Source: Lactovum miscens (lineage in GTDB: Bacteria > Bacillota > Bacilli > Lactobacillales > Streptococcaceae). From it: a stretch of DNA of 64,000 bases. Shown piece by piece: positions 2,747-57,532 of this stretch; within the stretch, counting starts at the first letter, position 1; each line of letters starts with the position of its first letter. The DNA lies in NCBI RefSeq assembly GCF_014202895.1, contig NZ_JACHHV010000003.1, positions 1-64,000 on the forward strand, given 5' to 3'. The translations under genes were made by a program, and so were the position numbers. Below the pieces are notes generated by a model. It saw nothing but the letters and a program-made list of their open reading frames with translations, was not told the origin of the DNA and did not search any database.

Positions 2747-4195
<1,449 letters not shown>

Positions 4196-5207: not shown

Positions 5208-6098
5208 ATGAAGAAAAAAGTACTGGTTGTGGTAGGCCCAACTGCTGTGGGGAAGTCGGCTTTAGCGGTGAGACTGGCGCATGAGTTTAAGGGCGAAATT
5301 ATTTCAGGAGATTCTCAGCAAATTTATCGTGGTTTAAATATTGGTACTGCAAAGGTAACTAGCGATGAGATGGGTGGGATTTCTCATCATTTGATTAATA
5401 TCCGAGACTTAAATGAAAACTTTTCGGCTCATGACTTCGTTTTGTCTGCGATGACTGCCATTGAGGATATTATATCACGCGAGAAATTACCTATTATTGT
5501 TGGAGGAACTGGCCTATATATTCAAGCGCTTACTGAGGGATATCATCTTGGGGGGGAGAAAAATCATGAATCAATGATGAAACTACGTCAAAGATTGAAG
5601 TTTTATTCAGACAACGAACTAAAATTGGCTTTGAATCCTGAAAATCAAATTCAGCAGTTCAATCGTCGACGAGCTATCCGAGCAATTGAATTACAAGAGT
5701 TTGGGAAAGGAGAAAATTATGAAGTCCCGTACGATTTTGGATATATTGGACTTGAGTCCGAACGTGCGATTCTTTATGACCGAATTAATAAACGCGTAGA
5801 TCGGATGCTTGAGGTTGGGATTCTTGACGAGGCAAAAAAACTTTTTGAAGGTTACCAACAAGTTCAGGCATCAAAAGCAATAGGTTATAAAGAGTTTTTC
5901 CCATATTTTAAGGGAGAGATTTCTCTTGAAGAGGCTGTGGAAAAATTGAAACAGGACTCTCGGCGATACGCTAAACGTCAGTTGACTTGGTTTAAAAATC
6001 GGATGGATGTGAAATTCTTTGATGTTTTTGAGCTGGACTTCCTTGAAAATGTTATAATGTGTATAAGCGAATTCCTTAGAAATAGAGAGGACGACTGA
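5208..6098 (+). CDS. miaA: tRNA dimethylallyltransferase MiaA
   Basis: Transfers a dimethylallyl group to N6 of A37 in tRNAs that read codons starting with U. The protein has 296 residues, the usual length. The P-loop GPTAVGKSAL lies near residue 9, followed by GEIISGDSQQIYRGLNIGTAK, IIVGGTGLYIQALTEGY, and the C-terminal KRQLTWFKNR motif. The reading frame is open further upstream, but the protein proper starts at ATG 5208. No Shine-Dalgarno precedes it, and the -10 box ends 7 nt before it. The gene may be cotranscribed with the unknown gene starting at 6123, 24 nt after the stop. Confidence 0.95.
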   Translation: MKKKVLVVVGPTAVGKSALAVRLAHEFKGEIISGDSQQIYRGLNIGTAKVTSDEMGGISHHLINIRDLNENFSAHDFVLSAMTAIEDIISREKLPIIVGGTGLYIQALTEGYHLGGEKNHESMMKLRQRLKFYSDNELKLALNPENQIQQFNRRRAIRAIELQEFGKGENYEVPYDFGYIGLESERAILYDRINKRVDRMLEVGILDEAKKLFEGYQQVQASKAIGYKEFFPYFKGEISLEEAVEKLKQDSRRYAKRQLTWFKNRMDVKFFDVFELDFLENVIMCISEFLRNREDD

Positions 6099-6122
6099 AA
6101 TTTAGAAAGACTTATTTATACT

Positions 6123-6986
6123 ATGGTTGAAAATAATATTGATTATATTGCGTTGGCAACAAAATATGGCGGTTATATGGAAACAGACAGGGTTTATCTG
6201 GAAAATCGTTTGTCAACAATGAGCGAAGCACAGAAAATGCGGTTACTATTACCACCCCCTTCTGTGATTAACGCATACTTTACTGAACTCTACCAAAAAC
6301 GTAATCCTCAGGAAGCCACCTCATATTTCTTTGGTATGTCTCAAGCTTTTGGTATGTTTTTTCAAAAGCCTGCTTTTGGCATAGAAGGTCTCTCTCATTA
6401 TGAGCTTTTCCGTTTTATTCGCTTAAATATTGATGGAAAAGCCTATGGCTTCAGCTACATCAATGAACAAGAGGAAGCTATCATTTTTAGTGAACTTCCT
6501 GAAAAAGCGAATCAAAAGTTTATGTTAAACCTTTCTCAAATCTTCCCACAGTATGTCATTTTTGAGTTAAATGATGAAATTCATATGAAACCAAAGAAGT
6601 TTGAACGTTTCGTCAACCAACGTGATTTGACAACAATTACGTCTGCTGCTGAAAATGAAACCTATATTAAGTTCTACGGATACAATATTGATGAATTAAT
6701 TGAGCAAGGTGGGAACAGTTTTAGCATAGAAACACTTATGCAGTATGATCCAGCTCTAAAACAGTTTATCATTTATCAAAACAAAGGAGTAGCTAAGCCA
6801 AAAGTAAGACCGAAAATTAGTACTAGGTCAAAAAGTATCACCTCTCCAGTTTCTAGGAAAGGAACAAACGCTATCAAACAAGAAATTAATCCAGTTGATA
6901 GTCCAACTTCAACGGCAATTCCAAATGATTCATCACTAGTAAAATCTCCGGAATTCAAATTGCCTGAAGAAACTACTCTCTTTTAA
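6123..6986 (+). CDS. Conserved hypothetical protein with charged, proline-containing tail
   Basis: 287 residues, no family recognised. Residues 1 to about 225 look like a folded alpha/beta domain (GYMETDRVYLENRLSTMSEA, then aromatic-rich strands around IRLNIDGKAYGFSYINEQEE). The last 60 residues are low-complexity, rich in Lys, Pro, Ser and Thr (AKPKVRPKISTRSKSITSPV) and probably disordered. There is no signal peptide or membrane segment, so it is likely cytoplasmic. It lies between miaA and the SPFH gene on the same strand, and cotranscription is plausible. Start: ATG 6123 after a weak agaaag; no better start is evident. Confidence 0.6.
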   Translation: MVENNIDYIALATKYGGYMETDRVYLENRLSTMSEAQKMRLLLPPPSVINAYFTELYQKRNPQEATSYFFGMSQAFGMFFQKPAFGIEGLSHYELFRFIRLNIDGKAYGFSYINEQEEAIIFSELPEKANQKFMLNLSQIFPQYVIFELNDEIHMKPKKFERFVNQRDLTTITSAAENETYIKFYGYNIDELIEQGGNSFSIETLMQYDPALKQFIIYQNKGVAKPKVRPKISTRSKSITSPVSRKGTNAIKQEINPVDSPTSTAIPNDSSLVKSPEFKLPEETTLF

Positions 6987-55751: not shown

Positions 55752-55866
55752 AATTTTTAAAGGTTAGTTCAATTTAAAGAAAAAGAAATAATTTTTTAAG
55801 GCTCTGTTAGCCGTATGTGTTGATTTTTGGATAAAACATTTTCCCCACTAAAATTGTGGGGAAAAA

Positions 55867-56400
55867 CTATTTTTTATGGGTACCATAATTTCCTTCAAAC
55901 GAAAAGAGTAAGTCAATTAGCCCTTGATAATAAGGAATGAAAACACCACCCTGTATCATCTCTTTTAGTTCGTTAGGGCTAACCCACTTAACTGCTTGCA
56001 CTTCTTCGGCTTGAAGCTTCAAACTATCTAAATCAACATCTTGATAAAGAATATAAAAATCATCGAATCCACCGTCAAAATTAATGGTGAAATAAGGACG
56101 AGTGTCTTTGAAAGATATTGATAAGCCAAGCTCTTCTGATAACTCGCGTGATATAGCTTCTTGGCTTGATTCACCAACAACGGCAGAGCCAGCAGCTGTG
56201 AAATCCCAATAATTCGGCCAGCCAGCTTTAAAGGACTGTCTTTGTTGTATTAGCAATTCACCATCTGAGTTAATTATCAATAACGTTGCAACCATATGAT
56301 AATCGCCTTTATTGATCTTTTCTCCTCGAACTATTGTTTTTCCGGTGTTGTTTCGATTAATATCGTAAACATCCCAGATTTCAAATTTTTCAACTGACAT
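55867..56400 (-). CDS. NUDIX hydrolase, passenger gene of the IS1595-type element
   Basis: 177 residues, intact. The NUDIX box G-x5-E-x7-REL-x-EE-x-G-L is complete: GSAVVGESSQEAISRELSEE then LGLS. The N-terminal half (EIWDVYDINRNNTGKTIVRG, then MVATLLIINSDGELLIQQRQ) resembles the isopentenyl isomerase-like/YfcD group. It probably cleaves a nucleoside diphosphate-linked substrate; the exact one is unknown. The ATG shares a base with the transposase stop (TAATG), and its ribosome site AAAGGTGG lies in the last transposase codons. It lies wholly inside the element's inverted repeats, so it travels with it. Confidence 0.88.
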   Translation of the reverse strand: MSVEKFEIWDVYDINRNNTGKTIVRGEKINKGDYHMVATLLIINSDGELLIQQRQSFKAGWPNYWDFTAAGSAVVGESSQEAISRELSEELGLSISFKDTRPYFTINFDGGFDDFYILYQDVDLDSLKLQAEEVQAVKWVSPNELKEMIQGGVFIPYYQGLIDLLFSFEGNYGTHKK

Positions 56401-57417
56401 TATATTATTTCCACCTTTCGTAAACGTAGAGTTTCTATCATTTCGTATTCTTTATGCGTCAATGATTGTACCGCAAGTTCTTTGATACCATTCGTTGTGC
56501 TGTCAAAACTGATTGAATCTAGGAAATTGAACAGAGCGATGTAGCCGTTTAAATATTTCGTAGCTACACCTTTGAAGTTCGCAATCCATGATTTTAAACG
56601 ACTATGGTAACTGTTCACGTTTTGAATGTGATAGATACCTTTGCTACGTTGTTTGCCAGTTTTGAAGGCGTAATGTTTCAAATCGTGTTCATTTGTGAAG
56701 GTACTATAAGCCCGTAGAGCGTCCGTATACAAGGCTGAGCCTTGTTCCACTTTTCCTGATAAGCCTTGCTCTATCTCACTAGAACTAGGTCTTCCACGAC
56801 CGATAATCTTAAAGAATGTGTTCTTATTACGGTCACGAGCGACAAGTACACAGATTTGTTATTTGATAATCCACGTTTGGTAGCTGAGCCGCCACGCTTG
56901 CGTGAATTGCGGTTAGTTGGTTTTGAACCCTTGCTTGATTCCAAGAAAGAATGTTTCATCAGCCTCAACGATTCCTTCTAAACTCTCGATTTGAATATCT
57001 TCAAGGGCAGAGAAAATCTTATGTCGCCAATAGAATAGCGTCACGTAATGCACACCGATACGTTCTGCTGATTCACGCAAGCTCATGCCAAGAAGTACAC
57101 TCAATAAAGTCTAACCAACGGTTTACTTTACGACAATGGAATAATGGTGTCGCAGTCGTATCAGAAAACGATTTATGACAATCCTTGCAATAGTAGCGTT
57201 GCATACCTGGTTTTGTATGACCATTCCGATTTACATTCATAAAACCACAATTAACACAATGAAAGCCGTCTTTTGCTTTGATTTCAGTTGCTTCACCAAA
57301 GACAGATTTCACTTATGATTGTGGTGATGTAAGCATGATTTTAAAATGATTCATTACACGTCTTTTATTAGACTCAGGCAAGTTTTGGATTTCTTGGATA
57401 ATATCAGCTACACGCAT
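56400..57417 (-). pseudogene. IS1595-family transposase, one stop and three frameshifts
   Basis: The intact protein would have about 338 residues, starting MRVADIIQEIQNLPESNKRR at 57417. It has an N-terminal zinc ribbon (FHCVNCGFMNVN ... YYCKDCHKSFSDTTATPLFH), a helix-turn-helix (MSLRESAERIGVHYVTLFYW) and an ISXO2-like DDE core (EGIVEADETFF; RKRGGSATKRGLSNNK; ALYTDALRAYSTF; YHIQNVNSYHSRLKSWIANF). It is broken by an in-frame TAA after LTSPQS (about 57315) and by single-base frameshifts near 57095, 56945 and 56868. The element cannot move by itself, although its ends are almost perfect. Confidence 0.82.
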
Positions 57418-57532
57418 TGGTATCACTCGCTTTCATCAAGGTTTCTATACCTTAATTATACTACCGAAGCGGTTTATTACGAAAATCAACACTTACGGCT
57501 AACAGAGCCTTTTTTAAATATGAATAGGTTAT

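Follow-up and report, generated by a model that had tools for sequence, protein, structure and literature searches.

The window analysed here, a stretch of 64,000 nucleotides of a Lactovum miscens contig, carries an IS1595-family element of 1710 bp (about 1.7 kb; 55800-57509) in the interval that separates mrnC from a nitroreductase gene. The element is bounded by terminal inverted repeats of 29 bp, of which 27 bases match; the repeat at the NUDIX end lies at 55800-55828 on the plus strand (GGCTCTGTTAGCCGTATGTGTTGATTTTT) and that at the transposase end at 57481-57509 on the minus strand (GGCTCTGTTAGCCGTAAGTGTTGATTTTC). Sequence comparison identified an exact 8-bp target duplication outside both ends, TTTTTTAA (left copy 55792-55799, right copy 57510-57517). 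The 28-nt end of the element is found at two sites in the window and at none in 100 shuffles. On the minus strand, the transposase (57417-56400) is followed by the NUDIX gene (56400-55867) and then by a terminator-like hairpin. A possible promoter for both genes is a TATAAT box (57455-57460, minus strand) ahead of the transposase start. The hairpin (55839-55865; 10 pairs, 5 of them G-C) stands directly after the NUDIX stop and scores on both strands, in a search that yielded two such hairpins where 1.3 are expected by chance.

The transposase is a remnant, interrupted by one in-frame stop near 57314 and by three frame changes near 57100, 56940 and 56850, these being the positions where the matching reading frame switches. 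Profile NF033547 (IS1595 transposase, ISXO2-like DDE domain) scores 164 bits on the remnant (cut-off 75), Pfam DDE_Tnp_IS1595 matches its C-terminal piece, and 63 of the 68 residues conserved in the family are retained outside the lesions. The element has the terminal repeats and 8-bp duplication of the IS1595 family and lacks its functional transposase; it is evidently a decayed member of this family. A profile search found no other IS1595 transposase in the L. miscens genome, where the element itself is present as a single copy. With its transposase broken and no second enzyme of the family found, this single-copy element is probably immobile now.

The NUDIX gene (55867-56400, minus strand) is an intact ORF with an ATG start and encodes a hydrolase of 177 aa (PF00293, 2.6e-16) with a complete Nudix box, GX5EX7REUXEEXGU (GSAVVGESSQEAISRELSEELGL). 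Its start codon shares one base with the transposase stop TAA (56402-56400, minus strand; TAATG), and its ribosome-binding site AAAGGTGG (56418-56411, minus strand) lies within the transposase 3' end. The gene is probably still expressed, given that its Nudix box is complete and that it has a ribosome site of its own. The protein retains 40 of 42 conserved residues (conservation from 95 relatives), and its AlphaFold model (pLDDT 91.7) retrieves Nudix folds at E 1e-12 in structure comparison, the nearest solved structures being DR0079 (2o5f) and YfcD (2fkb), then IPP isomerase (IDI). An identity as IPP isomerase was considered and rejected: alignment to 3hyq places an alanine at the catalytic cysteine of IDI (SVCGHP segment), which makes a hydrolase more likely, and the NCBIfam score for type I isopentenyl-diphosphate isomerase is 54, against a cut-off of 127. 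DR0079 and YfcD are about 21-23% identical to the protein, a distance over which a substrate is not transferable; as such enzymes are thought to do, the NUDIX protein would most likely hydrolyse a metabolite of the nucleoside-diphosphate type.

The best relatives of this protein are only 50-58% identical and are scattered across Firmicutes. They have no recurring neighbour gene (the commonest occurs in at most 8 of 103 loci), and no IS1595 transposase was found beside them among about 110 loci. A viral origin was also rejected, since no relatives of the NUDIX protein or of the transposase were found in viral contigs and phage matches to NUDIX are at most 46% identical.

The counts given in a preliminary description of this DNA (ends matching at 27 of 29 bases, a perfect 8-bp duplication, a unit of 1710 bp) proved correct on re-examination. 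Its tally of one stop and three frameshifts was confirmed in the reading frames, and so were the overlap of the NUDIX start with the transposase stop and the position of the ribosome site in the transposase 3' end. The genome search for the ends that it had recommended was run with the 28-nt end, which at up to 3 mismatches is found in two of 337 genomes of the family, L. miscens and one other. The NUDIX-bearing unit is known from one copy among these 337 genomes and the viral contigs, phages and plasmids searched.

Three congeners (G002, G003 and G004) possess mrnC, with neither a NUDIX gene nor element ends beside it. Different genes follow mrnC in G002 and G003, while in G004 a nitroreductase gene is located one gene further on; the exact empty site is not shown by these genomes, which are too distant. 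The target duplication and the three congeners without the NUDIX gene are most simply explained by an insertion of the entire unit, and the ends, the duplication and these NUDIX-free loci support what had been proposed initially, an IS1595-type element with a NUDIX passenger within its repeats. Alternatively, the NUDIX gene could have been resident at the locus, with an insertion sequence placed alongside it and the second end arising by chance or as a later copy; its subfamily is indeed common as single genes in Firmicutes chromosomes. However, the gene lies within the ends, the exact 8-bp duplication lies outside both, and the mrnC locus of all three congeners is without it, so that a resident gene was rejected as extremely improbable.

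Passenger-bearing IS1595 elements have been termed tIS (PMC5704250). A gene without a role in transposition, that of the NUDIX protein (55867-56400), is enclosed by the ends of the element (55800-57509), and the structural definition of a tIS fits it in all but the dead transposase. The element is very probably a decayed tIS, an insertion sequence of the IS1595 family whose passenger is the NUDIX gene. One transposition would have brought both genes together into the gap between mrnC and the nitroreductase gene, creating the 8-bp duplication; that they moved jointly is suggested by the one copy and its duplication. The transposase then acquired four inactivating lesions, leaving a copy that can presumably no longer move by its own enzyme.

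Related elements were sought by way of transposase relatives, for which the order and the class were sampled. Ends were set where 19 or more of 28 end bases matched and the duplication agreed at 7 or 8 of 8 bases; flanks of about 1.5 kb were examined, and longer elements could be missed. Both ends were set at 21 related loci, corresponding to 19 distinct elements when three lnu(C) copies are counted once. In fifteen of the 19 the ends enclose a cargo ORF of 90 aa or more, one cargo gene each, and four hold no cargo or none that is clear. The cargo comprises DUF1706, GNAT (three times), VOC, peptidase S51, Lnu(C), YrvL, alpha/beta hydrolase, a CopZ-type zinc domain, WapI-like immunity, APH and HXXEE proteins and two of unknown type. 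By this count, elements of this clade normally carry one passenger, and NUDIX is a single type among many; the carriers regularly acquire one cargo gene behind the transposase, the NUDIX gene being one such load. At another locus (L180:1483-2662), a NUDIX gene of a different subfamily follows an IS1595 transposase fragment, in an element whose ends were not found, and NUDIX cargo may have been acquired more than once.

It has been described that tISSag10 (MTnSag1, lnu(C)) and tISCpe8 (lnuP) have 25-bp ends, 8-bp duplications and a transposase with one resistance gene; a circular intermediate for MTnSag1, and mobilisation by Tn916, have been described as well (PMC5704250). Three of the loci found here (L132-L134) match MTnSag1/tISSag10 in Lnu(C) (380 bits), ends and duplication. 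The L. miscens element resembles MTnSag1/tISSag10 in having an IS1595 transposase followed immediately by one cargo gene inside the ends, an 8-bp duplication and a length of about 1.7 kb. It differs in carrying NUDIX and no lnu gene, whereas the cargo of MTnSag1/tISSag10 is a lincosamide nucleotidyltransferase and its transposase is intact; the two transposases are about 41% identical and the ends diverge after GGCTCTGT. tISCpe8 has by description the same layout (PMC5704250), with different cargo. The closest intact transposases, at about 42-47% identity (BLASTP), belong to elements of Bacilli (L127, L128, L130, L157 and L159) whose ends begin GGCT(A/C)TGTTA and which have 8-bp duplications and one cargo gene each (DUF1706, GNAT, VOC, YrvL and GNAT, respectively). 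In these, about 70-150 bp separate the transposase stop from the cargo start, whereas the NUDIX gene overlaps the stop. No paper joining IS1595 with NUDIX was found in the literature searched, within which NUDIX is a cargo type for IS1595 tIS not reported before. With the L. miscens element a NUDIX enzyme joins the known cargo of the IS1595 family, and the relatives of this element show the clade moving single small enzymes as routine cargo, including the resistance genes lnu(C) and dfrD.

The second genome with the 28-nt end, G013, belongs to another genus of the family and holds a unit of 733 bp (L121:2895-3627, equivalent to G013:C19:61394-62126). Its ends are those of the L. miscens element with 0 and 1 mismatch, and its 8-bp target duplication is AAAAATTA. 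The unit contains no transposase, no IS1595 transposase was found in G013, and the cargo is a truncated ORF with a weak resemblance to inorganic pyrophosphatase. In its ends, its duplication and the absence of a transposase it corresponds to mobile insertion cassettes and other transposase-less units, from which the L. miscens element differs in retaining a transposase remnant. Matching ends bound different cargo in the two genera, which shows that this end type has spread from genus to genus with different contents.

Two further readings concern the present state of the element. It had been suggested at the outset that the passenger may be under selection, and host selection for nucleotide cleansing or detoxification could keep it intact while the transposase decays, as would suit 534 bp without a lesion, 40/42 conserved residues and a full Nudix box. 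Yet, given four lesions in approximately 1041 bp of transposase, zero lesions in the NUDIX gene have a chance of about 0.19, which leaves the suggestion unsupported. Conserved residues are also retained about equally in the two genes, the 63/68 of the transposase outside its lesions making its decay look recent, and the single-copy NUDIX unit offers no second copy for dN/dS. Selection on the passenger is a real possibility that falls somewhat short of being probable. The other reading is that the element is still mobile and is moved in trans by a related transposase of the host. Mobilisation in trans, also raised in the preliminary description, is plausible for the family, as the transposase-less G013 unit with matching ends illustrates, and both ends of the L. 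miscens element are well preserved (27/29). No helper was found in this genome, however, nor any IS1595 transposase in G013, and the element is single-copy; continued mobility of this copy is unlikely. Translational coupling of the two genes had likewise been thought noteworthy, but in this clade the cargo gene usually follows the transposase closely. The transposase frame is interrupted, so that no ribosome entering at its start would still be in frame at the junction; having its own ribosome site, the NUDIX gene is now probably translated independently.

The routine cargo of this clade raises the question of how the slot behind the transposase is reloaded. Four relatives from Firmicutes (L129, L130, L155 and L156) have transposase DNA that is 97.8-99.6% identical and unrelated cargo (MBL-fold, VOC, dfrD and NTF2-like, respectively). 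Their identity ends at a fixed nucleotide, directly after TTCAACTAACGGGGCAG, some 30 nt past the transposase stop codon. It returns at the far end, near GGTGCTTTAGTTGA, in L130, L155 and L156, with L156 differing there by a base or two (slot regions L129:2541-2600; L130:2541-2600 and 3060-3169; L155:984-1060 and 1620-1720; L156:4453-4530 and 6040-6156). The motif of L155 is without one G, which gives a low ungapped count on the left side, while the BLAST alignment runs through. Besides these four, L128 and L159, which are more distant, have kept the motif. A DNA hairpin fold was obtained for the L128 copy (z -9.8) and for that of L159 (z -3.0), and none is clear for the copy of L040, a locus of Bacillus sp. 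MM2020_1. The fixed switch nucleotide looks like a site-specific cassette slot; alternatively, the hairpin repeats may be of a REP-like or terminator type. No description of such a hairpin slot system was found in the literature, of which coverage was partial. In L155:1-1575 (Enterococcus faecalis LR961983.1), dfrD lies directly behind the IS1595 transposase, between slot motifs; no paper joining IS1595 with dfrD was found in the literature searched.

The NUDIX gene itself might have been brought into such a slot as a cassette, through site-specific recombination acting on a hairpin site that has since disappeared. The change of cargo at one fixed hairpin nucleotide in L129, L130, L155 and L156 would agree with this, as would the hairpin motif bracketing the NUDIX relative of Bacillus sp. 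MM2020_1. Against it, the L. miscens element holds no trace of the motif, including between transposase and cargo, and the NUDIX start overlaps the transposase stop directly; entry as a cassette is very unlikely. A broader model, in which the IS1595 clade is a general one-gene carrier whose fixed slot behind the transposase is reloaded in Bacilli by an integron-like site-specific system (hairpin sites, single-gene arrays and a Xer-like recombinase of 280 aa) and the NUDIX gene is a load with a lost site, is speculative and seems only slightly less improbable. The reading preferred here for the L. miscens element remains that of a decayed tIS.

Other loci with the hairpin repeat were also found. 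In Bacillus sp. MM2020_1 (L040:4700-6400) the repeat lies on either side of a gene whose product is related to the NUDIX protein at 52% identity. Tyrosine recombinases of about 280 aa adjoin hairpin sites or lie within a few kb of them in three genomes (L214:3672-4517, plus strand; L215:3979-4821, minus strand; L216:3606-4448, plus strand; L040:7577-8416, minus strand). Those of L214, L215 and L216 are 66-73% identical to the L040 member, and the nearest NCBIfam families are XerA/integron-integrase; this Xer-like recombinase, which is contained in chromosomal arrays where the hairpin stands between single genes, is a candidate enzyme for the cassettes. In G754:C18:5000-44999 (L199, L200), 50 of 51 predicted ORFs over about 40 kb lie on one strand. 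The hairpin motif stands between many of these small genes, frequently in duplicate with a terminator-like stretch in the middle, and this region of a Bacilli chromosome is reminiscent of the cassette array of an integron.
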